Of a stretch of 43,150 nucleotides of DNA, positions 9,727 through 43,150 are shown piece after piece. The position numbers and the translations under genes were made by a program. The DNA is from Balneolaceae bacterium (GTDB lineage Bacteria > Bacteroidota > Rhodothermia > Balneolales > Balneolaceae). The notes beneath the pieces are model-generated. The model was not told the origin of the DNA. It saw nothing but the letters and a program-made list of their open reading frames with translations, and searched no databases. The first letter of the stretch is position 1; the number at the start of each line of letters is the position of its first letter. The stretch spans positions 1 to 43,150 of the forward strand of contig PWWL01000308.1 in NCBI GenBank assembly GCA_003561515.1. The letters are read 5' to 3'.

Positions 9727-10170
9727 TTACCTGTTCACGAGGCGTGCGTCTTTCAACTCATAAATAATACCCATACTCGCATCGGTTACCAAATGAAATG
9801 TATCCTGCAACGCCATGGGTCTGTGATTATAATCGATTGGTTCAACAGTTCTTACGTAAACCATGGATTCCGCTTCGCCTGGACCGCAGAAAAAGCAGTC
9901 ACTCATGGGGCTGGCGCTGACAAGAAAGTTGGAATGTTGACGAGTATACTCGAGAGGGAACATGAATCCTTCTACAATCATCTCTTTTCCATCGAGTTTC
10001 TTTTGATTGTCGTTAAACTTTACCTGGTAGAAATTGCTATCCCATACCCATTCAACATTTGCAAGAACGGACCAGTCAAGCTTTTCAGCTGCCTCATCTT
10101 TATCATTGGGTGTTAATCCCATAAGCAGAATTGCAGCTGTGAGAAGTGAGAGTATTGAGAGATTCTTCAT
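9727..10170 (-). CDS. DUF3299 domain-containing exported protein
   Basis: MIVEGFMFPLEYTRQHSNFLVSASPMSDCFFCGPGEAESMVYV matches the DUF3299 pattern; N-terminal signal peptide. Confidence 0.8.
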   Translation of the reverse strand: MKNLSILSLLTAAILLMGLTPNDKDEAAEKLDWSVLANVEWVWDSNFYQVKFNDNQKKLDGKEMIVEGFMFPLEYTRQHSNFLVSASPMSDCFFCGPGEAESMVYVRTVEPIDYNHRPMALQDTFHLVTDASMGIIYELKDARLVNR

Positions 10171-11584: not shown

Positions 11585-12241
11585 TCAGGCAACCTCCCCC
11601 ACAGGCAATTCAAGGTCTACAACGTTGTCGAAATGCCTTTTCACCCGGCTGTCGTGGGTTGAAATAACGAGTGTGGCACCGGTTTTTTCCGCCATTTTTT
11701 TCAGCAATCCCACAACATCCTCACTGCGCAGATCGTCGAGGCTGGAGGTGGGTTCATCAGCCAACAGCAACGCCGGTTCGTTTACAACAGCCCGTGCAAT
11801 GGAGACACGCTGTTTTTGTCCCTGACTGAGCTGTCCGGGATAGGATCTCATCTTTTCCCCGATTCCAAGTTCGCTGCATAGATCACGAATGCGGTTCAGA
11901 TCTTCGGGAATACCGGCCATATATTGCGCAATGCGGATATTCACTTCAACTGATAATGTATCAATTAGATGAAGCTGCTGATAAATAACACCAATATTCC
12001 TTCCCCTGAAGCGATCGCGCTGCGATTCACTCATTTTATAGAGATCGGTGCCATTAATAGTGAGTGTTCCGCGTGTAGGCCGTAAAACACCGGCTAATAC
12101 GTGCAGAAGTGTTGATTTTCCGCTGCCAGAGAGGCCTGTAATCAGCAAATGATCACCCTTGTCAGTATGCAGTTCGGGCAGCTTAACAGTAGTTCTGGCA
12201 TCGTATGTATGGTGAGCATTTTTAAGAACCAACATAATCAA
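11585..12241 (-). CDS. ABC transporter ATP-binding protein (LolD/MacB type)
   Basis: Walker A GLSGSGKSTLLHVLAG, signature LSQGQKQRVSIARAV, LLADEPTSSLD. Confidence 0.93.
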   Translation of the reverse strand: MIMLVLKNAHHTYDARTTVKLPELHTDKGDHLLITGLSGSGKSTLLHVLAGVLRPTRGTLTINGTDLYKMSESQRDRFRGRNIGVIYQQLHLIDTLSVEVNIRIAQYMAGIPEDLNRIRDLCSELGIGEKMRSYPGQLSQGQKQRVSIARAVVNEPALLLADEPTSSLDDLRSEDVVGLLKKMAEKTGATLVISTHDSRVKRHFDNVVDLELPVGEVA

Positions 12242-12567
12242 TGACTCTCAACACACATGGAACATTCAACCCACTCTTCACTAGGGATTTGCTTTATTGC
12301 ATCGGGACTGTTGCCTTTCTCAAACACCGGCCGGAAGAGCACATTCCCTTCGGGATGACCCGTCCCGCAACTATGGCAGCTTACGTCATGATCTACCAAA
12401 ACCGGTGTATAGCCGGTAATCACCCAGCCGTCGTGCCCCTGATGCGCAGCCAGGCTCTCAAGTGCTGCACGGACCGTTTGCGACTTATTGCCGCCATAGT
12501 ACTTTTCAGAAAGCCTGTTGAGCAATTCCACGGTCTGATTGTCGAGTGTAAAGTTCAATCGCTTCAT
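12238..12567 (-). CDS. Ribbon-helix-helix-like regulator with C-terminal Cys pairs (putative metal sensor)
   Basis: N-terminal MKRLNFTLDNQTVELLNRLSEKYYGGNKSQTVRAALESL is RHH-like; C-terminus has CHSCGTGH and CSMCVESH. Confidence 0.65.
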   Translation of the reverse strand: MKRLNFTLDNQTVELLNRLSEKYYGGNKSQTVRAALESLAAHQGHDGWVITGYTPVLVDHDVSCHSCGTGHPEGNVLFRPVFEKGNSPDAIKQIPSEEWVECSMCVESH

Positions 12568-13088
12568 GACATAATATGCGTTTCTGGTTCATCTTCATTT
12601 CTCTTTTCCGGGTTGACTTCATCTTCGGTTTCAACCGGATGGTGCTGGTGCGAACTGACGGTACAGGTTTGATGATGCCGGTAGTTGAGCCAGTGGCCCC
12701 GGATTAACAAAATGCTTCCGGTCAGGGTAAATATCGTTTCGACCCAATATCCAAGCCAGAAATGGCCAAGCAGCCATCCGGCAAGAACAAGAAGCAATCC
12801 GGCACCGAGCAGGCCTGTTATCTTTCGATCAAAATGGCTTCTCTTAGAAGCGAAGTAAACCGTGGGGGCGATCAACACAATAAACAGCGGGTGCAGCCAC
12901 TCAGCCAGGAACGGTGATGTGGAGAGCAGCGGCAGTAAAGCCACAAGCACCGGAAAAAAAAGACAGTGAATGGCACAAATGGCGGATATGCCGAGTCCAA
13001 ATCGGTCCCAAAGAATAGATTCCGTGATGCTTTTTTCCGCCAAAATTAAATTTCTAAAGTGTTTATTTGAGTGTGTATTAATATACAC
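12564..13088 (-). CDS. MerC domain-containing membrane protein
   Basis: WDRFGLGISAICAIHCLFFPVLVALLPLL and His-rich C-terminus. The called GTG start lies inside a palindrome; TTG at 13041-13043 is an alternative start. Confidence 0.8.
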   Translation of the reverse strand: MYINTHSNKHFRNLILAEKSITESILWDRFGLGISAICAIHCLFFPVLVALLPLLSTSPFLAEWLHPLFIVLIAPTVYFASKRSHFDRKITGLLGAGLLLVLAGWLLGHFWLGYWVETIFTLTGSILLIRGHWLNYRHHQTCTVSSHQHHPVETEDEVNPEKRNEDEPETHIMS

Positions 13089-13091
13089 ACT
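13070..13091. promoter_or_regulatory. Inverted repeat, candidate operator of the metal operon
   Basis: AGTGTGTAT-TAAT-ATACACACT: 9-bp perfect arms. A flanking AAAGTGT (13056-13062) is also the inverse of ACACTTT (13087-13093). Confidence 0.55.
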
Positions 13092-13348
13092 TTAAACTTC
13101 CAATGGCAAGGTCGCCTTGCAGATTTTTAGCGAAGTGCAATAGAATTGTCAATTGCAAGGAATAAGCCTGACAGTCTGGACTAAGGAAAGCACTTAACGG
13201 ATGATGGATGCATCTAAAAAAGTCAAGGCTTTTTTTATCAGGAAGCGGTTCAGGGAGCGTTTAAGCATTTTAAGTTAAATTCCCCTTTTTTGTTCTCCCT
13301 CACAGTTTTCTGGATAATCAGGCAGATCACACAAAACTGCTTAGACCT

Positions 13349-14328: not shown

Positions 14329-16085
14329 TGAATACTTCCCCTACACCACTCCTCAAACTCTTCCACACTTTTAGTGTTCAGCACACGCGCCGGTTCGAAC
14401 TTCGCCTTACGGGCAATCATCACGCCGTAGCGGATATCGTCGATGCCTTCGGTACTGTGGGCGTCAGGATTGATGGAGGTGATTAGGCCTGTTTCCCTGG
14501 CTTTGTTGCCGTATCGCCAGTCGAGATCGAGCCGCCATGGGCTGGCGTTGATCTCAATAACAGTGCTGTGTTCGGCGGCGAGTTCAATCAATTTATTTAG
14601 GTCGAGCTTACTCTCCTCTCTCTTCAGCAGTAGTCGTCCGGTTGGATGTCCTAAAATCCGCGTATAGGGATTCTTAATCGCGGCCTCAAACCGCGCCATC
14701 ATTTTTTCAAGAGGCATCTCCATACCGCTATGTACGCTGGCAATCACGAAGTCAAAGCCGGCTAGGATCTCATCGGGATAATCGAGCGAGCCGTCGCTCA
14801 GAATATCCGATTCCATCCCTTTGAAGATTTTGAAACTTTTCCCTTCGCTTATGAATGCCTCATTCAGCTGATCAATCTCCTCCCACTGCTTCTTCACCTC
14901 GTCAATGGTCAGTCCGCCGGCATAGGCCGCCGTTCTGGAGTGATCTGTAAGGGCCAGGTACTCATATCCCCGCTCCATGTACGCTTCGGCCATTTGGCGG
15001 ATGGTGTACTTTCCGTCGCTATACGTGCTGTGCGCGTGCACCACTCCTTTGATGTCTTCATCGCTCACAAGCTCCATGGACTCGTGTTCGGCGTAATAGG
15101 CAAACTCGCCGCGGTCTTCACGGTGCTCGGGCGGAATAAAGTTGAGGTCAAGCTTGCTGTAGATCCCGGCTTCCGATCCGGTTTTTACCGGCTGATCGAA
15201 ATCGGTCTCTTTTTCTTCATTGAGCTTGAAAAGGCCGTACTCGTTCAGAGCCATGCCGCGTTCGCGGGCGCGCTGACGCATCACGATGTTGTGCTCCTTG
15301 CTGCCGGTAAAGTACATCAGTGCCGCCGGGTACTCCTCGGGCTTCACAATCCTGAGATCCACCTGCCTTCCGTTTTCAGTACGCACCGAGCTTTTGGTGT
15401 CGCCCCGGCCCAGCACCTCCACCACCAGGTCATGATTCACAAAGGCGTCAAAAATGGTTCCTGCATCTGCGCTATCTGCTGCCACAATAAGATCGATATC
15501 CCCGATGGTTTCGCGCGAGCGGCGAAGGGATCCTGCAATCTCGCACTGCTTAACGCCTTTTAGCCCTTTCACAAATTCAAAGTAGGGTTCCGCAATATCC
15601 AGGGCCTGGTCGAGCCGGGCTCGTTCACCGAACTTCTCCAGGTATTCGATCGACTTGATGATCTTGTCGGCCGACTTTTGCCCCAGCCCCGGCAGTTCGG
15701 CTACCGCTCCGCTCTGGCACGCTTCCTTCAGCTCAGTGATTTCGGTGATGCCCAGTTTCTGATAGATCTTTACAATGTTCTTCGGCCCGAGTCCGGATAT
15801 ATTCAACCATTCAATCAATCCTTTGGGAACTCGCTCTTTCAGATCCTCCAGTACCGGCATGGTTCCCGTCGCAGAAAATGCTTTGATATCTTCCGCAATC
15901 GATTTGCCAATGCCCTTGATGTCGGTCAGGTTATCATTTTCGATATAAGCTGTAATCTCATCGTTCAGCCCTTCGATGGTCTGTGCCGCGCGGTCGAACG
16001 CGATGGCCCGGAACCGGTTCTCTCCGGCCAACTGCATCAGGTTATACACTTCGCGAAGTTTTTCGGCTACGTCCTGGTTGGTCAT
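14325..16085 (-). CDS. polX: DNA polymerase/3'-5' exonuclease PolX (HhH, Pol X and PHP domains)
   Basis: GIGKSIAEDIKAF, GSLRRSRETIGDIDLIVAA, PHP motif VVHAHSTYSDGKYTIRQMAEAYMERGYEYLALTDHS. Confidence 0.95.
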   Translation of the reverse strand: MTNQDVAEKLREVYNLMQLAGENRFRAIAFDRAAQTIEGLNDEITAYIENDNLTDIKGIGKSIAEDIKAFSATGTMPVLEDLKERVPKGLIEWLNISGLGPKNIVKIYQKLGITEITELKEACQSGAVAELPGLGQKSADKIIKSIEYLEKFGERARLDQALDIAEPYFEFVKGLKGVKQCEIAGSLRRSRETIGDIDLIVAADSADAGTIFDAFVNHDLVVEVLGRGDTKSSVRTENGRQVDLRIVKPEEYPAALMYFTGSKEHNIVMRQRARERGMALNEYGLFKLNEEKETDFDQPVKTGSEAGIYSKLDLNFIPPEHREDRGEFAYYAEHESMELVSDEDIKGVVHAHSTYSDGKYTIRQMAEAYMERGYEYLALTDHSRTAAYAGGLTIDEVKKQWEEIDQLNEAFISEGKSFKIFKGMESDILSDGSLDYPDEILAGFDFVIASVHSGMEMPLEKMMARFEAAIKNPYTRILGHPTGRLLLKREESKLDLNKLIELAAEHSTVIEINASPWRLDLDWRYGNKARETGLITSINPDAHSTEGIDDIRYGVMIARKAKFEPARVLNTKSVEEFEEWCRGSIQ

Positions 16086-32688: not shown

Positions 32689-33861
32689 TCATTTAAAAAG
32701 CCTTGGTACAAAAACGGTCATATACTCCCGCCAGTTTTTCCAGGTATGGCCGCCCGCCGTTTCAACGTATTCGTATGGCATGCCGAGTTCATCCAGTTTC
32801 TGGCGATAGTTCACAACCTGGTTGTACAGAAAGTCGGTTTCACCGATTGCAATCCAGTAAAGTTCGAATCCATTCTCGTTTTGCCTCTTAAGGGTTCCAT
32901 CAAACTGTTCATACACGGCTGAAGTTGCATTTTCATTCGGAAATACGGCTGGAGAGAAAAGTCCGACATAATCAAACGTATCTGGATGATACCGGGAAAT
33001 GTGTAACGAGTGGAAACCACCCATTGACAGGCCGGCAATAGCCCGGTCCTCTTTGTTGGATTTCACCCGGTAGTTATCTTCAACAAACCGGATGATGTCG
33101 GGAAAAGTCTCTTCCTTCATTCCATCCATCGTATTGGAAAGCTGCATGGTGGGCTGAAAAAGTCCGCGGGTCGATTCACCCGGAGCTGCCTGCTGCGAAA
33201 CATTGCCGTTTGGCATTACTACGATCATCGGCCTGGCTTTGCCCTGTGCAATCAGGTTGTCCATTATCTGAGCGGTACGGCCAAGCGAAATCCACGCTTC
33301 CTCGTCCCCTCCCATTCCGTGCAGCAGATAGAGCACGGGATATTGCTCCGATCCATTCTCATAACCGGGCGGTGTATATATGGTGATGCGCCGTTCTTTA
33401 TCGAGTCCCGGAGAATGATACCAGCGCTTTGCCACGGTTCCGTGCGGCACATCCTGCACCTTGTAGAAATCACCCTGACCACCTTCCACTATAAACATAT
33501 TGAAGATGGAAGCTACATCACGAACCACGTGTACATTCCCGGGATCGTTCACGCGAAGGCTGTCAACCAGGAAAAAGTATGTATAAAGATCCGACTCCAT
33601 CACAGATGTGGTGTATGTCCAGACACCGTCATCATCCTTTTTCATGGCTGCGGTGCCGGGGCTGAATCCTTCCCATGGCATCCAGTCACCCGACAGAAGA
33701 ACCTCACCTGCTTCCGGTGCCGGCAACCGGAAGGTTACGGTTTTGTCATCGTGAATTTCGGGAGAAACGACCTGCCCTCCCCCTCCGAGGGCCTGCTGTG
33801 CAGTAAGTTGTGGAGGGATGGCTATAATAAACAAGGCAGTCAATATTTTTTTCATGATCAT
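32689..33861 (-). CDS. Esterase D/feruloyl-esterase-like protein with N-terminal E-set (CBM48-like) domain
   Basis: TFRLPAPEAGEVLLSGDWMPWEG, YHSPGLDKERRITIYTPPGYENGSEQYPVLYLLHGMGGDEEAWISLGR, AIAGLSMGGFHSLHI. Confidence 0.9.
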   Translation of the reverse strand: MIMKKILTALFIIAIPPQLTAQQALGGGGQVVSPEIHDDKTVTFRLPAPEAGEVLLSGDWMPWEGFSPGTAAMKKDDDGVWTYTTSVMESDLYTYFFLVDSLRVNDPGNVHVVRDVASIFNMFIVEGGQGDFYKVQDVPHGTVAKRWYHSPGLDKERRITIYTPPGYENGSEQYPVLYLLHGMGGDEEAWISLGRTAQIMDNLIAQGKARPMIVVMPNGNVSQQAAPGESTRGLFQPTMQLSNTMDGMKEETFPDIIRFVEDNYRVKSNKEDRAIAGLSMGGFHSLHISRYHPDTFDYVGLFSPAVFPNENATSAVYEQFDGTLKRQNENGFELYWIAIGETDFLYNQVVNYRQKLDELGMPYEYVETAGGHTWKNWREYMTVFVPRLFK

Positions 33862-33907
33862 GTGATTGATTCAGGCACTTCTCACTTTCTTTTCAGTGCT
33901 AAAAGCT

Positions 33908-33932
33908 TTATTGTTACATAATGTAACAATAA
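33908..33932. promoter_or_regulatory. Perfect palindrome between the divergent esterase and NUDIX-regulator genes, candidate operator
   Basis: TTATTGTTACAT-A-ATGTAACAATAA: 12-bp perfect arms around one central base. Confidence 0.75.
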
Positions 33933-34041
33933 TAGCTGAATAAACTATCCATCACAAATTCATTATCATAAAAGCCAGGCAAGTTCCGCTTAAAACAGCA
34001 CACTCCTCAAGAAAAAACAAACAGTTAAAAAACCTTCAATC

Positions 34042-34773
34042 ATGAGCAACAAAGACGAACGAAATTCTATCTCTGAAGTTACCTGGGATGATTACATGCC
34101 GGGCATCTCTATAGATTGCGTGATCTTCGGATATCACAAAAAGGAGTTGAAAATCCTGGTTCTCGAATATAAAAAAAGCGGTATCTTTGCCCTGCCCGGC
34201 GGTTTTTTACGGAAAAATGAAGAACTGAAAGACGCCACTGAACGTGTACTTTTTGAACGCACCGGCTTGTCTGACATTTACCTGAATCAATTTCACACAT
34301 TCGGGTCTCTTAAACGCGCTGATACAAAACCTATGCAAAGCGTTTTGAAAAAGAATCAGGTACCGTTTGAGGAAAACCACTTCCTGTTGCAGCGGTTTGT
34401 CTCTGTCAGCTATTACGCCCTTGTTGATATTAAGCGGGTAGAACCGGTAGCCGACGAACTTTCCGACAGCTGCAAATGGTACGATACTGATACCCTTCCC
34501 CCGCTGATGCTTGACCACCGTGAAATTTTTGAAACAGCGCTGAAACACCTGCGCAACAATATCAACCGAAACGTAGTGGGGATGAATCTGCTGGATGAAT
34601 CTTTTACAATGGGTGAGCTGCAAAACCTGCATGAAACCATTCTCAGCGAAAAACTGAATCGTACCGGTTTTCACAGGAAGATGATGCTCTCCGGCCGGCT
34701 GAAACGCCTCGGAAAAAAGAAAACGGGCAAGGCCCACCGGTCGCCCTTTTTATACAAATTTTTGGATGCCTGA
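34042..34773 (+). CDS. NUDIX-domain transcriptional regulator (NrtR/AraR-like, C-terminal winged helix)
   Basis: GISIDCVIFGYHKKELKILVLEYKKSGIFALPGGFLRKNEELKDATERVLFERTGL (degenerate Nudix box), wHTH-like FTMGELQNLHETILSEKLNRTGFHRKML. Confidence 0.82.
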   Translation: MSNKDERNSISEVTWDDYMPGISIDCVIFGYHKKELKILVLEYKKSGIFALPGGFLRKNEELKDATERVLFERTGLSDIYLNQFHTFGSLKRADTKPMQSVLKKNQVPFEENHFLLQRFVSVSYYALVDIKRVEPVADELSDSCKWYDTDTLPPLMLDHREIFETALKHLRNNINRNVVGMNLLDESFTMGELQNLHETILSEKLNRTGFHRKMMLSGRLKRLGKKKTGKAHRSPFLYKFLDA

Positions 34774-35259: not shown

Positions 35260-35829
35260 ATGGAATCATATCTTATTGGAATTGGAAAAAAAATCCGGAA
35301 AATCAGAAAAGAAAAAAATCTCTATGCTAGTGAAATTGCAAGACGCGCCGATGTTAGCAATGGACTTATTTCAAGAATAGAAAACGGGCGAACCATTCCT
35401 TCTTTGCCAGTTCTGTTTGCCATTATTCAGGCTCTTGAGGTTGACCCGAGTGATTTTTTTAAAAGCATCAGCCCCAACGGCTTCTTCAAATACCTTGTTG
35501 TGAGGGCTGATGAACATGAATTAATCGAAAAAGAAGATGATGCAACAGGATTCCGGTACGAATTGATTATGACAAGGGAATTAAAAAGCATTGGAACAGA
35601 ATTTGTGATGCTTACTCTGGAACCAGGATGTACAAGAGAAACTGTTGAGACAGACGCTTACGAGTACAAGTATATTCTGAATGGAAGATGTATATATGAA
35701 ATTGATGGAGAATCGGTTGAACTTGGAAAAGGAGACTCCATTTTTTTTAATGGCAGGCTCCCGCACGTACCCAAAAATCCTTTTGATAAACCGGCCAGTA
35801 TGCTGGTAATCTATCTTTACACCGATTGA
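35260..35829 (+). CDS. XRE-family transcriptional regulator with C-terminal cupin domain
   Basis: IGKKIRKIRKEKNLYASEIARRADVSNGLISRIENGRTIPSLPVLFAI; cupin YKYILNGRCIYEIDGESVELGKGDSIFFNGRLPHVPKN. ATG 35260 preferred to the called TTG at 35257. Confidence 0.92.
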   Translation: MESYLIGIGKKIRKIRKEKNLYASEIARRADVSNGLISRIENGRTIPSLPVLFAIIQALEVDPSDFFKSISPNGFFKYLVVRADEHELIEKEDDATGFRYELIMTRELKSIGTEFVMLTLEPGCTRETVETDAYEYKYILNGRCIYEIDGESVELGKGDSIFFNGRLPHVPKNPFDKPASMLVIYLYTD

Positions 35830-35842
35830 GCTCCTTAATAGC

Positions 35843-36964
35843 CTAAAGTTTTTCAATCTCTTCTTCGGCAAATCCAAACGAGAATGTCATGCCGGCTCCG
35901 CCAAAGCCGGTAACAATTTTTACACCCGTCTCAGGTTCAAATGTGTACTCCGTTCCTGCAGGATTTTTTGCATATACGCCATACCATGTTTCAGTGATTT
36001 TCATGCCATTCCCGGCAACCGTGCAAAATCCTGAGAGGTAATCCAGAATTAATTTGTTGATATCTGCCTTGTTAAACGGATCGAAAGTGAGGCCATACTC
36101 ATGTGAATCCCCGATAATCCACTCTCCTGCCTGATTTTTAGAAATCATGACGTGAATGCCATATTTATGGTAAAGAGGCAATTCTTCATTGAGACGCTGA
36201 ATCAGTTTAGCCGTTCCCTGGCATTCTGCAAAAGATTGATAGTGCTTCAATGTGAGCCCCCCACAGAGTGTTGGACCTTTAGATACCTCTTGTACCGATG
36301 AAACGGCTTTCATCATCTGAAGCTTGCTTTTAATAAGGCCACTGCTTCTGAAGGCGTTCGAATAAAGTGACTGGAAATCCGAACCGCTGCAGATATAAAT
36401 CATATCAGCTTGCCACTCTCCTGAAACTGCAGTTAACCGACCGGTTTCGGTATGAACGACTTTCTCACCGGTGATGATTGTTACACTATCCTGAGCCCGC
36501 AGCCAGTCAGTTATAGATGAGACAGCCTCCCTGGGATTTACATTTACTTCTAACTCGCTGAACAAACCTCCCAATAATCCCTTACTGTTTGAAATGGACG
36601 AGACAGTTTGAACTTCGATTGGGTTAAGAACAGACGTTTTGAACCCGAACTTTTGATGATACTCATTCAGTACGTCCATCTCATCCTGATGATAAGCCAA
36701 GTGAAGGGACCCATTCTGAAGTGCCCAGAAATCCGCCTCAACGGCGAGCTTCAGCCAGATCTCTCTGCTTCGTATGGCTCTTTCAAATAGCTTACCTTGT
36801 GGCTGACCAATAGGCCAGATCAGTCCAAAATTTCGTACGGATGCGCCAACCGCCGTTTCATCCTTTTCAAACAGAACCACTTGATATCCCTTTTTCCAGG
36901 CAGCATAAGCATGCGCAAGGCCAATGATCCCACCTCCCACAATGGCAACATCTGTTTTATTCAT
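35843..36964 (-). CDS. FAD-dependent oxidoreductase, TIGR03364-like (phosphonate-associated)
   Basis: DVAIVGGGIIGLAHAYAAWKKGYQVVLFEKDETAVGASVRNFGLIWPIGQPQGKLFERA; C-terminal TGFGGAGMTFSFGFAEE. Confidence 0.82.
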   Translation of the reverse strand: MNKTDVAIVGGGIIGLAHAYAAWKKGYQVVLFEKDETAVGASVRNFGLIWPIGQPQGKLFERAIRSREIWLKLAVEADFWALQNGSLHLAYHQDEMDVLNEYHQKFGFKTSVLNPIEVQTVSSISNSKGLLGGLFSELEVNVNPREAVSSITDWLRAQDSVTIITGEKVVHTETGRLTAVSGEWQADMIYICSGSDFQSLYSNAFRSSGLIKSKLQMMKAVSSVQEVSKGPTLCGGLTLKHYQSFAECQGTAKLIQRLNEELPLYHKYGIHVMISKNQAGEWIIGDSHEYGLTFDPFNKADINKLILDYLSGFCTVAGNGMKITETWYGVYAKNPAGTEYTFEPETGVKIVTGFGGAGMTFSFGFAEEEIEKL

Positions 36965-38346
36965 GAATTATTTCCTGTATAATAGTCATCAGTTATTTCT
37001 AGTGCTTTATCGAGTGCACTCACTATCATGTCAATTTCATCAGCTGTTACAATTAATGGTGGCATTATCCAGACACCGAATTTATCGGAAGGCAAATAGA
37101 TGTCTTTCTCATTGTATAGAAAATCGGCAAGCTCTTTTACAGGGTTATCGTCATACTTTTCGCCAGTTGATCGAATTGGTTTTTTGGATTCCCTGTCCTT
37201 CACAAGCTCCAGTGTCCACATAAGCCCGAGCCCTCGTACTTCTCCAACTGAAGGATGTTTGTCTCCAAGTTTCTTTAGCTCTTGGTGAAGGTACTCTCCC
37301 AATTTAACAGTGTTTTCGAGTATTCCTTCTTCCTCAATCACTTTAAGGCTTTCAAGAGCCGCCCTGCAGGCAAGGGCATGCCCAGAAAAGCTTTGCCCGT
37401 GGCCAAAAATGTAATCATCGAACGTTGATGCAACTTCCGCAGATACGATACATGCTGAAAGGGGGCAATAAACACCAAGAGCCTTGCCCATTACCAATAT
37501 ATCCGGGACCACATCATAGTGTTCGATGGCAAGCATTTTGCCGGTTCTGCCAAGGCCGGTCATTGTTTCGTCAACGATCAGTAACAGACCGTGCTTATCA
37601 CAAATTTCCCGCACGCGCTTCATGTAAGCTTTTGGTGCTGGAATAATTCCATTTGAGCCTACAACAGGTTCAACAATTACGGCTGCTACAAAACCGGACC
37701 CACCTTCCATTTCAATGATGTACTCAAGGTAATCTGCCGCCCTGTGGCCATCCGGATCCTCCCCAAATGGAGAACGGTACGGATACGCATCAGGTGCAAA
37801 AACAACGCCCGGCATGGAAACAGGCTCACCAAACCATCTACGGGGATCGCCGCTAGCCGACATTGCGCTGCCACCTGCCCCGTGCCATGACCGATACCTT
37901 GAAATAATTTTGTACGGGTATGGATACTGATTACTCCCCTGAAACGCCTCTCTTCCTTTTTCAAGCAGCTGGTTATACTTATAAAATCGGGCAACCTTTA
38001 AAGCTGCTTCAACAGCTCCCGCTCCGCTTTGACCAAACCACACTTTTTTATTGCCCTCGCCCGGCGTGATGTCGGACAGTTTCTTTGCAAGCAAGGCTGT
38101 TGGTTCGGAAGCAAAATCATCTGTTATGTAAATCAGACTGTTCATCTGTTTTTGCATAGCGTCTAAGATTCTCGGATGATTGAACCCCAGGTTAATACAT
38201 TCGTGAGCACTCCTGAGATCGAAAATTTTTCTCCCGTCATCTGTATGCATCCAGCATCCTTCAGTTCTCACAATTACATCAGGCAGATAGCTTTTCTGAG
38301 CTGACCAACACTGAAGCATATGTTTACTCTGTGTTTCAGATATCAT
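36961..38346 (-). CDS. Class III PLP-dependent aminotransferase
   Basis: VWFGQSGAGAVEAALKVAR, LLIVDETMTGLGRTGKMLAIEHYDVVPDILVMGKALG (PLP lysine); ATGA overlap with the oxidoreductase. Confidence 0.9.
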   Translation of the reverse strand: MISETQSKHMLQCWSAQKSYLPDVIVRTEGCWMHTDDGRKIFDLRSAHECINLGFNHPRILDAMQKQMNSLIYITDDFASEPTALLAKKLSDITPGEGNKKVWFGQSGAGAVEAALKVARFYKYNQLLEKGREAFQGSNQYPYPYKIISRYRSWHGAGGSAMSASGDPRRWFGEPVSMPGVVFAPDAYPYRSPFGEDPDGHRAADYLEYIIEMEGGSGFVAAVIVEPVVGSNGIIPAPKAYMKRVREICDKHGLLLIVDETMTGLGRTGKMLAIEHYDVVPDILVMGKALGVYCPLSACIVSAEVASTFDDYIFGHGQSFSGHALACRAALESLKVIEEEGILENTVKLGEYLHQELKKLGDKHPSVGEVRGLGLMWTLELVKDRESKKPIRSTGEKYDDNPVKELADFLYNEKDIYLPSDKFGVWIMPPLIVTADEIDMIVSALDKALEITDDYYTGNNS

Positions 38347-38630
38347 TCCGGATACAAGTTACAGTGCGAATGGCGAGAGATGATAGACATTCTATTTTTT
38401 ACTTATACTCAATTAGTATTTTAGCCAACATGACTTCTTACGCATCTTCATTAAACGGATTTATGCACATTATTGCATATTGCGATTGTTAAGAAAAGGT
38501 TATTATTTCGCTTAAAAATTACGTTTTTGTTTCTGAATGCCATTTAAGATTAACAAATCAATAAATCGAAGCTCATCCCTGCGCTATCAACCAAAAAAAA
38601 TTACTTTTACAAATACTCAAAAATATTCAA

Positions 38631-39305
38631 ATGAAATACAAACTTATTGTTTTTGATATCGCGGGCACAACCTTACAAGATGACAATGATGTTGTTACCC
38701 ACGCTTTTACAGAAGCTTTTAGAAAAGTTGGAATTGAACCTGCTGAATCTAAAATCAAACAGGTAATGGGTTACAAAAAAATAGATGCCATAAATATGGT
38801 GCTCTCGGATATGTCTATTGAGCATTCCGAAGAATTTTCTGATGAGATCCATACCCATTTTTTAGAGATTCTTAACCACTATTATCAGAACCATGACATT
38901 CACGAGATTGATGGTTCAACAAAAACATTCACAGCTCTCAAAGAAAATGGATACCGGGTTGCACTAAATACCGGTTTCAGCCGCAGTACAACCGATATCA
39001 TTCTGAAACAGCTTGGCTGGGACAACAGATTGGTCGATGCAACAATTTGCAGCGATGAAGTTGATTCCGGACGGCCATCGGCTGACATGATCAATCAGCT
39101 TGCCGGACAATTTCACATTACAGATAACCGGGAAATCGTAAAGATCGGCGACACCCCTTCCGACCTTTTGGAGGGTAAAAATGCCGGATGTGGCTTGGGA
39201 ATTGGTGTACTCCATGGTACTCATTCAGCTGAAGAATTGAAGCCATTCCCTCATGACTATCTCGTCAGTAATATGAACGAACTACTATCAATTTTGACTG
39301 ACTGA
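38631..39305 (+). CDS. Phosphonatase-like HAD hydrolase (TIGR03351-like)
   Basis: FDIAGTTLQDD (DxAGT, as in phosphonoacetaldehyde hydrolases), cap segment VMGYKKIDAI, KIGDTPSDLLEGKNAG. Confidence 0.87.
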   Translation: MKYKLIVFDIAGTTLQDDNDVVTHAFTEAFRKVGIEPAESKIKQVMGYKKIDAINMVLSDMSIEHSEEFSDEIHTHFLEILNHYYQNHDIHEIDGSTKTFTALKENGYRVALNTGFSRSTTDIILKQLGWDNRLVDATICSDEVDSGRPSADMINQLAGQFHITDNREIVKIGDTPSDLLEGKNAGCGLGIGVLHGTHSAEELKPFPHDYLVSNMNELLSILTD

Positions 39306-40651
39306 TGCCCGATAATCCGAATCTCCGTTCTGAAGGTGACATTAATACAACTGGCCGGCGACTTCGGTTCATGGAATCGGTTAATGACAAATTCACTCTT
39401 GAACTGCTTGAACGGGATTCGAATGTATTCCTGCATCAGTCTCTCTCAACCCCGTGTTTAAATGTTGTTGCCTCGTGCAGCGGGGCCTCGATTACCCTGG
39501 AGGATGGACGCACACTTCTCGATTTTCATGGAAATTACATTCACAATGCAGGTTTCTCACATCCTGTAATTTTGGAAGCTGTGACCCGGCAAATCAAAGA
39601 ACTTTCATTCTGCACCAGAAGGTACACCAACCGTCCGGCCGTCGAGCTGGCAGAGAAGCTGGCTTCTCTTTCACCCACTCTGAAACGCGTACTTTTTGCA
39701 CCTGGTGGTTCAGAAGCGATCAGCATGGCACTGAAGATTGCCCGGATTGTAACCGGCCGGCACAAAGTGATCTCGTTATGGGATTCATTCCACGGGGCTA
39801 CTCTTGATGCGGTTTCAGCCGGAGGTGAAGCTACTTTCCGGCAGGGAATTGGCCCGCTGCTTCCCGGGTTTGAACATGCTCCTCCGCCAAATCCATCAGA
39901 ATGTCCGTTTGAATGTGGCAGAGAATGTAACAAGCAATGTGCAAAGTATATCGAGTATATGCTCGAAAAGGAAGGCGATGTCTCAGCCGTGGTTGCTGAA
40001 ACCATACGTTCATCGCCCTTTATTCCACCGACCGGCTACTGGCAGATTGTTCGCGAAGCCTGCACCCGACATGGTGCTCTTTTGATTCTGGATGAAATAC
40101 CGCATGCATTGGGGCGAACCGGAAAAATGTTCACGTTTCAGCATTTCGGCATAGAGCCCGATATCGTTGTGATCGGAAAAGGACTGGGCGGAGGCATCAC
40201 TCCGTTTGCAGCTCTGCTTACACGCGATGAATTCAATGAATCTCTGAAACATCATTCCGTCGGGCATTTTACGCACGAAAAAAGTCCGGTGGCTTCAGCA
40301 GCAGCTCTTGCACTGTTTCGTGTGATCGAGGAAGAAGATCTGCTCGCCCATGTTAATCGGATGAACAAGTCTGCCATAGCACACTTATCCGGATTGAAAA
40401 AAAAGCACTCTGTAATCTCTGACGTTCGAATACTCGGACTCATGATGGGCATAGAGCTCAGAGATCCTGTCAGCGGCGGCAAAGCCCTTGATCTTGCTGA
40501 GGATGTAATGTACCGAAGCATGGAACTTGGCCTGAATTTCAAGCTTTCGATGGGCAATATCATCAACCTAACCCCTCCAATGAATGTAACTACCAGCCAG
40601 CTTGAGCAGGCTTTTGGAATCATTGACCGGGCACTGGAGGAATCGGCGTGA
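39305..40651 (+). CDS. Class III PLP-dependent enzyme, PbfA-like ((R)-1-hydroxy-2-aminoethylphosphonate ammonia-lyase candidate)
   Basis: GNYIHNAGFSHPVI, FAPGGSEAISMALKIAR, PSECPFECGRECNKQCAKYIEYMLEKEGDVSAVVAET, LILDEIPHALGRTGKMFTF, VVIGKGLGGG. Confidence 0.78.
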   Translation: MPDNPNLRSEGDINTTGRRLRFMESVNDKFTLELLERDSNVFLHQSLSTPCLNVVASCSGASITLEDGRTLLDFHGNYIHNAGFSHPVILEAVTRQIKELSFCTRRYTNRPAVELAEKLASLSPTLKRVLFAPGGSEAISMALKIARIVTGRHKVISLWDSFHGATLDAVSAGGEATFRQGIGPLLPGFEHAPPPNPSECPFECGRECNKQCAKYIEYMLEKEGDVSAVVAETIRSSPFIPPTGYWQIVREACTRHGALLILDEIPHALGRTGKMFTFQHFGIEPDIVVIGKGLGGGITPFAALLTRDEFNESLKHHSVGHFTHEKSPVASAAALALFRVIEEEDLLAHVNRMNKSAIAHLSGLKKKHSVISDVRILGLMMGIELRDPVSGGKALDLAEDVMYRSMELGLNFKLSMGNIINLTPPMNVTTSQLEQAFGIIDRALEESA

Positions 40652-41961
40652 AGAGCAGAAAGGTCACAGAATGGCTCTTAAATCAAACCCGGTGGGTTTT
40701 TTCCTTGTACGCAATCCTTGCTGCGTTCAGCGCATACGCCTGTATGTATGTTTACAGAAGGGCATACACCGCTGCTGGCTTTGAGGGTTACGAATTCATG
40801 GGAATGGAGCTGAAAACGGCCCTCATCATCTCTCAGGTTCTCGGATATATGCTCTCCAAATTTCTCGGGATAAAATTTGTTTCTGAAATGACTCCCGATA
40901 AGCGGGCATGGGCTATCATCACGCTCATTTTTTCCGCTCATTTTTCACTCCTTCTTTTCTGGCAGGTACCTCAGCCTTTTTCCATCATTTTCCTTTTTCT
41001 TAACGGCTTGCCGCTTGGCATGATCTGGGGACTTGTGTTTAGCTACCTTGAAGGAAGAAGAAACACAGAACTTTTAGGTGCTGGCCTGAGTGTCAGTTTT
41101 ATCGTAGCATCGGGTATGTCGCGCAGTGCTGGTTCCTGGGTAATGATTGAGTGGGGCGTATCTGAGTTTGCCATGCCGTTTATTACCGGCCTCCTGTTTG
41201 CAGTGCCTCTTGTCTTTTTTGTATGGATGCTGAACCAGGTACCTCCGCCAACCGAAGAAGATGAGGAACAGCGCGTTAAGAGAGTACCCATGAACAGCAG
41301 CGAACGCTGGGCTTTTTTCCGTCAATACGCTCTCGGAATTACTGTGCTCACGCTTGGGTACATGGGGCTTACCGCCTATCGCGACCTTCGTGATAATTAC
41401 GCACTCGAAATTGTAACAGCCATAGGGTATGCCGGCGATCCCGGAATTTTTACACGTACTGAAATACCCATCGCCATGATAGTGCTTGTTGTGATGGCTT
41501 CCATCATGCTGATAAAAAATAACCGCAAGGCATTGATGGTGAACCATTACATTATTGCGTTCGGCTTTTCATTGATCGGGATCTCTACCTTTTTATTTCA
41601 AAGCGACATGATTAGCGGATACTGGTGGATGGTGCTTGTTGGTCTGGGCTCCTACCTCGGCTATGTACCTTTCAACTGCATTTTGTTCGACCGTTTTATC
41701 GCCACCTTCCGCACCATGGCCAACGCGGGTTTTCTGATCTACATCGCCGATTCGTTCGGCTACCTATCAAGCGTAGGCGTGCTGCTGTACAAAACATTTG
41801 GCCAGGCTGATATCAGCTGGTACCAGTTTTTCCTGAACTTTTCATGGTTCACCTGCTTTCTCGGCCTTATTCTCACATTTGCTTCATATATCTATTTCTA
41901 CCGAAAACGCCAGCCCATGCTGGTCAAAAAACCGACCAAACAACTCATTCCGGCAAAATGA
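40648..41961 (+). CDS. DUF5690 family MFS-like membrane protein
   Basis: WVFSLYAILAAFSAYACMYVYRRAYTAAGFEG, ~12 TM segments, GSYLGYVPFNCILFDRFIATFRTMANAGFLIYIADSFGYLSS. Confidence 0.83.
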   Translation: MKSRKVTEWLLNQTRWVFSLYAILAAFSAYACMYVYRRAYTAAGFEGYEFMGMELKTALIISQVLGYMLSKFLGIKFVSEMTPDKRAWAIITLIFSAHFSLLLFWQVPQPFSIIFLFLNGLPLGMIWGLVFSYLEGRRNTELLGAGLSVSFIVASGMSRSAGSWVMIEWGVSEFAMPFITGLLFAVPLVFFVWMLNQVPPPTEEDEEQRVKRVPMNSSERWAFFRQYALGITVLTLGYMGLTAYRDLRDNYALEIVTAIGYAGDPGIFTRTEIPIAMIVLVVMASIMLIKNNRKALMVNHYIIAFGFSLIGISTFLFQSDMISGYWWMVLVGLGSYLGYVPFNCILFDRFIATFRTMANAGFLIYIADSFGYLSSVGVLLYKTFGQADISWYQFFLNFSWFTCFLGLILTFASYIYFYRKRQPMLVKKPTKQLIPAK

Positions 41962-43150
41962 TACATTCAAGAATATTCATGTTACTTACGCTTGTTCTGT
42001 TTTCAATTCTATTATCGGCATGCGAACAGGGCAACGATCAAAACAAGCGCATAGCCAGCTACGTTGTTATCATTGGCATTGATGGATTAAGTCCCGATGG
42101 TCTTCGAAATTCGGAGGCTCCGAATCTTCAGCGACTTGCCAGTGAGGGCGCCCACAGTAACCACGCAAGGGCAGTAATGCCTACCAATAGCGGACCGAAC
42201 TGGGCTTCACTGCTGAATGGAACCACTGTTGAGCAGCATGGAGTAATGGTAAACTCGTGGACTCCCGACGATTTTGTGATGCCTCCTGTGGTTGTTTATG
42301 AAGACAATGTATTTCCTTCCATATTTGCTGTAATCCGACACCAGCTTCCCGATGCCGAAACAGGTGCTATTTTTGATTGGAACCCGATGGAGCGCTACGT
42401 AGAAAATGAATTAATTAGCAACCTCCAGCTTCCATCCGATCATTTCGAAACCACCCGGCTGGCATCAGACTATTTTCGTGCGAGTCGTCCCGATTTTACG
42501 TTCATACAGCTTGACCATGTGGATAGTGCTCTTCACCGTTACGGACACGGCTCTGATGAATATTATAAAGCGGTCGCAAATGCTGACTCCCTTGTGGGAT
42601 TGATGCTGGATGCACTCAAAGAAACCGGGATGTATGAAGAAACAGTGATCTTGGTAACCTCCGATCATGGAGGGTTGGGACAAGGCCACGGCGGCAATTC
42701 TCCGCAGGAGATGCAGGTTCCATTTATCGTTTATGGAAAAGGTGTAAAAAGGGGCCACCTTCTTCGTCAGCCAATAAACGCATACGACGTTCCTGCAACT
42801 GCCCTCTTTGCTCTCGGCCTGAAAGTGCCGTTTGAATGGACCGGCCGGCCGGTAAAAGCAGCCTTTACAGGCTATGATGATCCTGAACTGATGTTTCACC
42901 TGAATCACCTGATAAATGAGCCGGAAATACTTCCGGGCAGAGACGGCTTTAACCCGGCAGGCGGACTTTTTATCGAAGAGCCGGCAATAATGGAAATTGT
43001 GAATCCTCACAATGTGGGTGAAATCCGATTTACAACAGACGGCTCACTCCCCGGTGCTGAGTCACAGTTGTACACAGGTCCGCTTGAGATCCGTGAAAAC
43101 AGTGTTGTAAGGGCACGAATTTTTGAAAATGGGCGTCCGGTTTCACACCA
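41958..43150 (+). CDS. Alkaline-phosphatase-superfamily lipoprotein (type I phosphodiesterase/nucleotide pyrophosphatase-like), C-terminus beyond window
   Basis: Not in ORF track (open at edge). MIHSRIFMLLTLVLFSILLSACEQGN (lipobox), VVIIGIDGLSPDGL, MPTNSGPNWASLLNGTTVEQHGV, LDHVDSALHRYGHGS, VTSDHGGLGQGHGG; ATGA overlap with DUF5690. Confidence 0.88.
   Translation, partial: MIHSRIFMLLTLVLFSILLSACEQGNDQNKRIASYVVIIGIDGLSPDGLRNSEAPNLQRLASEGAHSNHARAVMPTNSGPNWASLLNGTTVEQHGVMVNSWTPDDFVMPPVVVYEDNVFPSIFAVIRHQLPDAETGAIFDWNPMERYVENELISNLQLPSDHFETTRLASDYFRASRPDFTFIQLDHVDSALHRYGHGSDEYYKAVANADSLVGLMLDALKETGMYEETVILVTSDHGGLGQGHGGNSPQEMQVPFIVYGKGVKRGHLLRQPINAYDVPATALFALGLKVPFEWTGRPVKAAFTGYDDPELMFHLNHLINEPEILPGRDGFNPAGGLFIEEPAIMEIVNPHNVGEIRFTTDGSLPGAESQLYTGPLEIRENSVVRARIFENGRPVSH

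Follow-up and report, generated by a model that had tools for sequence, protein, structure and literature searches.

A candidate aminophosphonate catabolic island in a Balneolaceae genome and a predicted permease role for DUF5690

We analyzed a 43150-base stretch of DNA from a Balneolaceae bacterium, hereafter the window, which is an entire contig (PWWL01000308.1; G000:C247) of an assembly of 3.57 Mb in 408 contigs that is 84% complete. At positions 35260-43150 it carries a phosphonate island of seven genes, most of them translationally coupled. We consider it likely that this island is a catabolic locus for 2-aminoethylphosphonate (2-AEP or AEP), N-methyl-AEP and (R)-1-hydroxy-2-aminoethylphosphonate (R-HAEP), with predicted release of substrate by a lipoprotein, import by a protein of the DUF5690 family, and degradation by PbfA, an oxidase and a hydrolase of the haloacid dehalogenase (HAD) type. 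Genomic context and sequence comparison predict that the DUF5690 protein is very probably an inner-membrane aminophosphonate permease, remotely homologous to the organophosphate:phosphate antiporters (OPA). A sequence-only reading of the same DNA had listed this gene complement, and every gene that it named was found where it had been placed.

DUF5690 and its predicted transport role

The DUF5690 gene occupies positions 40648-41961 on the + strand, and its product, a predicted membrane protein, scored 549 bits against PF18943 (cut-off 25). The closest named DUF5690 protein is from a Balneolaceae metagenome-assembled genome (L101; 79% identity). Its distribution was surveyed in 327 genomes of the phylum, together with a second collection of 80 DUF5690 loci and, as controls, 20 stretches from the same genomes, with neighbor counts taken from a homology-first choice of open reading frames. 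DUF5690 was found in about one in ten genomes (34/327, 33 of them above cut-off). TIGR03364, the oxidoreductase family of the island's oxidase, was present in 27 genomes, PbfA in 12 and PhnW (above cut-off) in 8, and DUF5690 was also present in 25, 10 and 5 of these, respectively. Where oxidase and DUF5690 occurred together, their genes lay no more than 12 kb apart in 21 of the 25 genomes. At least two of the HAD, oxidase, PbfA, PhnW and PhnA genes were found within 7.5 kb of DUF5690 at 21/34 and 39/80 loci, compared with 0/20 control stretches. The sequence-only reading had held that it would be undermined if orthologs of DUF5690 or of the lipoprotein never lay near phosphonate genes; by synteny, such orthologs are often nearby.

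The companions of DUF5690 varied between loci, being a PhnX-like HAD with the oxidase, PhnA with PhnY, PhnW, or an HD-domain phosphonate oxygenase (206.5 bits for TIGR03276, slightly under its cut-off). The partner thus remains constant while the chemistry changes, which is the behavior expected of a transporter. The three genomes with phosphonate genes and without DUF5690 (G179, G215 and G259) have instead a GlpT/AepP-like protein of the major facilitator superfamily (MFS). Its gene directly follows a PhnW-AP-PbfA-PhnA-PhnY-oxidase series in G215 and G259 (AP, alkaline phosphatase superfamily), and lies inside a HAD-PhnW-PbfA cluster in G179. AepP itself, a relative of GlpT, is a proven 2-AEP permease reported to have GlpT's phosphate-binding residues (PMC8316502).

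In five Chitinophaga loci (L135, L137, L150, L153 and L170, each at around position 10000), a gene for a helix-turn-helix (HTH)-cupin protein, SusC, SusD and DUF5690 form a unit that no catabolic enzyme adjoins, and TIGR03364 is encoded elsewhere in each genome. A PHP-domain protein of ~280 amino acids (L049:8430-9272) recurs beside DUF5690 in Cyclobacteriaceae-type loci (17/80), possibly contributing an extra phosphoesterase step.

The AlphaFold (AF2) model of the DUF5690 protein (predicted local distance difference test score, pLDDT, 93) is all-helical with a 12-helix MFS fold. Foldseek placed the human glucose-6-phosphate transporters of the OPA group first (G6PT and SLC37A2; E 1.6e-7). No Pfam MFS_1 or NCBIfam OPA model matched the sequence, PF18943 being its only match, and a PDB sequence search with the DUF5690 profile gave no match. 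Alignment with single sequences by hhalign gave weak scores (16-33 for OPA proteins, 15-21 for non-OPA proteins), and as these were insufficient alone, profiles were compared with profiles alongside controls. Against an OPA profile of GlpT, UhpT, UhpC and relatives, hhalign returned a probability of 96.4% (E 1.4e-9) over 418 columns, the full length of the protein, compared with 0.3% for the reversed OPA profile and 0.1% for a mixed profile of LacY, EmrD, NarK, GalP and DgoT; this same mixed non-OPA profile matched the OPA profile at 99%. Residues R37, K71 and R245 were invariant in 65 DUF5690 sequences and were paired by hhalign with GlpT R45, K80 and R269, the two arginines among these being established phosphate-binding residues of GlpT. 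As direct sequence-profile matches were absent, we describe DUF5690 as a remote OPA relative and do not file it as a member of that group.

Several observations weigh against a permease for aminophosphonates. Neither TIGR03364 nor PbfA nor PhnW was present in 7 of the 34 DUF5690 genomes (one a sub-threshold match), and the neighbors examined were unrelated; the family may therefore include members with other substrates. No core enzyme lay near DUF5690 in 25 further genomes, TIGR03364 being elsewhere in 9 of them, the five Chitinophaga among these, and nowhere in 16. The hypergeometric P values for co-occurrence of DUF5690 with TIGR03364 (9e-28), PbfA (2e-9) and PhnW (4e-4) ignore shared ancestry. 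The Foldseek margin was small, with OxlT at 4.4e-7 vs 1.6e-7 for the first matches and GlpT at rank 50, and a smaller OPA profile lacking AepP-like proteins gave only 57% (E 1e-4) over 102 columns. DUF5690 lacks GlpT H165, as do the AepP-like proteins.

A protein that belongs to the locus need not be its importer. DUF5690 might export a product (phosphate or an inhibitory intermediate) or act as a UhpC-like sensor, with uptake through another, unlinked protein. The OPA relatives do include Pi-exchange members and the sensor UhpC, which has R45, K80 and R269 as well, and phosphonates that serve carbon or nitrogen needs leave surplus phosphate. We nevertheless judge this improbable, since loci without DUF5690 have AepP-like permeases, relatives of a proven 2-AEP importer, in the equivalent place, since no PhnD-type importer was found in the source assembly, and since the five Chitinophaga loci join DUF5690 to SusC/SusD and a regulator at a distance from any enzyme. 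The preferred reading of DUF5690 as an aminophosphonate permease began as a suggestion of uptake in the sequence-only reading, and co-distribution, synteny, replacement by AepP-like proteins and remote OPA homology now carry it beyond that initial guess.

Entry enzymes, hydrolase and proposed pathway

The island encodes two enzymes that reached curated family cut-offs. The product of the gene at 39305-40651 (+ strand) scored 618.7 bits against the PbfA equivalog model NF049939 (cut-off 525), and the FAD-dependent oxidoreductase at 35843-36964 (- strand) scored 385.6 bits against TIGR03364 (cut-off 285.1), placing it with the PbfD-type aminophosphonate oxidoreductases. PbfA is an R-HAEP ammonia-lyase with phosphonoacetaldehyde as its product (PMC8154272), and PbfD enzymes oxidize N-methyl-AEP, and for some also AEP, to the same compound (PMC10590968). 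By family assignment, the island's PbfA is predicted to deaminate R-HAEP and its TIGR03364 oxidase to deaminate N-methyl-AEP or AEP.

The HAD protein is encoded at 38631-39305 on the + strand. The sequence-only reading had pointed to a DxAGT motif and an MGxxKID segment, and both are there, as the nucleophile D9 with A11 and as MGYKKID with the putative Schiff-base lysine K50. D9, A11, G12, T13 and K50 were invariant in 54/54 HAD homologs encoded near DUF5690. The best PDB sequence match was PhnX (2iof; E 6.6e-18), whose K53 aligned with K50. In the AF2 model (pLDDT 94) the four best Foldseek matches were all PhnX, with other HAD phosphatases close behind. Counting against this assignment, the protein scored below the cut-offs of both TIGR03351 (phosphonatase-like hydrolase; 180.9 vs 218.9 bits) and TIGR01422 (PhnX equivalog; 120 vs 220 bits), and for this reason we name it PhnX-like and not PhnX. 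From its residues and modeled fold, we predict that it cleaves the C-P bond of phosphonoacetaldehyde through a Schiff base on K50. With PbfA and TIGR03364 above their cut-offs and a PhnX-like HAD beside them, the proposal of the sequence-only reading that aminophosphonate catabolism converges here on phosphonoacetaldehyde held up.

Searches of the source assembly, at 84% completeness, found no PhnD-type binding protein, no phosphoenolpyruvate (PEP) mutase and no PhnJ of C-P lyase, which indicates that the island is catabolic and lacks the usual importer. On this assembly, phosphonate biosynthesis was rejected for lack of PEP mutase, and a C-P lyase route for lack of PhnJ. PhnW (TIGR02326) had no match above cut-off and none at E < 1e-60 in the same assembly. 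The earlier statement that PhnW and a phosphonate ABC importer are missing thus stands for the assembly as it is; for PhnW it is weak evidence about the organism, because three relatives (L046, L059 and L101) have PhnW inside or beside the cluster and the contig breaks off inside the island.

Taken in order, the proposed pathway would start outside the cell, where the secreted AP-superfamily phosphodiesterase lipoprotein may release phosphonates that are bound as esters to glycans or lipids. The 12-helix MFS protein DUF5690, whose transport role is strongly supported by the genomic evidence, would carry free aminophosphonate over the inner membrane and probably exchange it for phosphate. PbfA would then act on R-HAEP, and the TIGR03364 oxidase on N-methyl-AEP or AEP, to give phosphonoacetaldehyde, which the PhnX-like HAD would convert to acetaldehyde and phosphate. 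A second aminotransferase, described below, might transaminate a further aminophosphonate and so widen the substrate range, and the HTH-cupin protein would regulate the locus.

PbfA above the equivalog cut-off stands alone, with no phosphonate genes as neighbors, in several Bacteroidota genomes (L093-L097; e.g., L094:9281-10624), with DUF5690 elsewhere in the genome. In the Bacteroidota locus L100, a purple-acid-phosphatase-like protein and a protein that weakly matches metallo-beta-lactamase lie on either side of PbfA (11650-13242 and 14603-15871), together with SusCD and two AP-type enzymes.

Second aminotransferase, lipoprotein and regulator

The gene at 36961-38346 (- strand) encodes a class III pyridoxal phosphate (PLP)-dependent aminotransferase, here AT_B (Pfam Aminotran_3, 305 bits). 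It reached no NCBIfam cut-off, the best being PRK06062 (377 vs 472), and as a class III enzyme it is distinct from PhnW, which is a class V enzyme (TIGR02326). AT_B has the canonical transaminase loop HGQSFSGHALA, for which the counterpart in PbfA is THEKSPVA. Orthologs (~60% identity or more) were found in 4/327 genomes, all with a PbfA or PbfA-like gene; in one of them, G119, the ortholog adjoins an AP lipoprotein and a metallophosphoesterase (L091). By these sequence features AT_B is a canonical transaminase and a predicted accessory of the PbfA-type phosphonate locus. The sequence-only reading had placed it in the role of PhnW, and this was not supported, as PhnW above cut-off is present in each of the remaining ortholog-bearing genomes (G119, G223 and G179); since the two coexist, AT_B is not simply a PhnW replacement. 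It may still be that in the source organism AT_B serves as the AEP:pyruvate (or 2-oxoglutarate) transaminase in place of PhnW, an idea that fits its canonical motifs, the taurine:2-oxoglutarate aminotransferase (6jix) among its solved relatives, taurine being the sulfonate analog of AEP, and the lack of PhnW from the assembly. We regard it as unlikely, given the three genomes that pair an ortholog with PhnW, a TIGR03364 oxidase that could already supply phosphonoacetaldehyde, and a source genome that is incomplete.

The last gene of the island (41958-43150, + strand) encodes the AP-superfamily lipoprotein and is interrupted by the contig end. The protein has a signal peptide with the lipobox LLSAC, a Phosphodiest domain (PF01663, 116 bits) and then a CHB_HEX_C domain (CHB_HEX_C_1); a full-length ortholog of 546 amino acids in L046 adds a PA14 domain. 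D42, S78, D186, H193, D236, H237 and H244 were conserved in 19 relatives, and from what is known of the family we take these seven to be the putative nucleophile and metal ligands. With a Phosphodiest domain that retains these positions, the protein classes as a type I phosphodiesterase. This AP subtype was found at 13/25 PbfA loci vs 9/97 others (odds ratio 10.6, P 9e-6), an association that is indicative only: these loci are interrelated, and one of them is apparently counted twice, as L057 and as L102. R-HAEP has been found in an amoeba polysaccharide, and HAEP occurs in the membrane lipids of bacteria (PMC8154272). It is plausible that this putative surface lipoprotein frees R-HAEP or AEP from glycan or lipid esters; the ester-cleaving role that had been proposed for it from the sequence survives to that extent, with indirect support from the shared operon and the PbfA association.

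A general phosphodiesterase for phosphate scavenging, merely carried in the operon with no specific part in phosphonate-ester cleavage, is a possibility that deserves real weight, although we do not favor it. The NPP/phosphodiesterase family is broad, the best solved matches of the lipoprotein were ENPP4 and bacterial NPPs, and phosphate loci of Bacteroidota often join SusCD with phosphodiesterases (PMC8115612). On the other side stand the ATGA overlap that ties the gene to the operon, the co-occurrence of the subtype with PbfA, the presence of R-HAEP and HAEP in polysaccharide and lipids, and relatives with PA14 and CHB_HEX_C domains, so that release of bound aminophosphonates remains our preferred role for the lipoprotein. 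A second AP-superfamily subtype of ~360 amino acids (L049:257-1342, - strand, and relatives) stands beside SusC/SusD and DUF5690 in loci mostly without PbfA. In the two nearest relatives a calcineurin-like phosphoesterase gene follows the AP lipoprotein (L046:12258-14093 and L091:8435-10441), and one would be expected just past the window end.

Stop/start overlaps join aminotransferase to oxidoreductase (ATGA), HAD to PbfA (TGATG), PbfA to DUF5690 (GTGA) and DUF5690 to lipoprotein (ATGA), and on the basis of these four overlaps we describe two divergent, translationally coupled operons. They are separated by a 284-bp intergenic region (38347-38630), in which both promoters are presumed to lie. 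At the left end of the island, a PuuR-like regulator with an HTH of the Cro/cI type and a cupin domain is encoded on the + strand (35260-35829; Pfam HTH_3 and Cupin_2). Homologs with 36-59% identity were found within 7.5 kb of DUF5690 at 17/34 and 40/80 loci, and the protein is a probable regulator of the phosphonate locus. Farther left, at 32689-34773 of the window, a feruloyl-esterase-like esterase and a divergent Nudix/NrtR-type regulator form an apparently separate unit.

Relation to known systems and significance

The island resembles the known PhnWX/PbfA/PbfD hydrolytic pathway (Zangelmi et al., PMC8154272, PMC10590968) in clustering PbfA, a TIGR03364 oxidase and a PhnX-like hydrolase toward phosphonoacetaldehyde. 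It differs in the lack of PhnW from the assembly, in an extra class III transaminase, in DUF5690 where a known transporter would stand, and in the AP lipoprotein. With the AepP system (PMC8316502) it shares an OPA-type MFS protein beside 2-AEP catabolic genes and the phosphate-binding basic residues, whereas DUF5690 has no Pfam MFS_1 or PDB sequence match and its relation is visible by profile-profile comparison only. Many DUF5690 loci also fit the phosphate utilization systems (PUS, with PusCD) of Flavobacterium (PMC8115612). SusCD together with phosphonate-degrading enzymes was reported there, and that association is therefore not new. The island differs from PUS in that no SusCD lies in the window, where the contig ends, and DUF5690 is unnamed in the main text of that paper; here we propose the inner-membrane partner and show its relation to OPA. 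A literature search, with subscription papers and supplements outside its scope, found no publication naming DUF5690.

More tentatively, and at less than even confidence, DUF5690 could be an unrecognized family of aminophosphonate:phosphate exchangers, and the locus a phosphonate counterpart of a polysaccharide utilization locus. In this reading, R-HAEP or AEP would be released from phosphonoglycans or phosphonolipids by a surface phosphodiesterase that has glycan-binding domains (with SusCD in relatives), DUF5690 would swap it against the Pi produced, and several entry enzymes would lead to phosphonoacetaldehyde.

In sea, soil and sediment, Bacteroidota play a major part in degradation, and little is known of their aminophosphonate uptake. 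If the permease assignment is true, DUF5690 would fill this transporter gap for Bacteroidota and would offer metagenome studies a marker gene for the use of phosphonates. If the exchange is true as well, release of phosphate to neighboring cells would be predicted.

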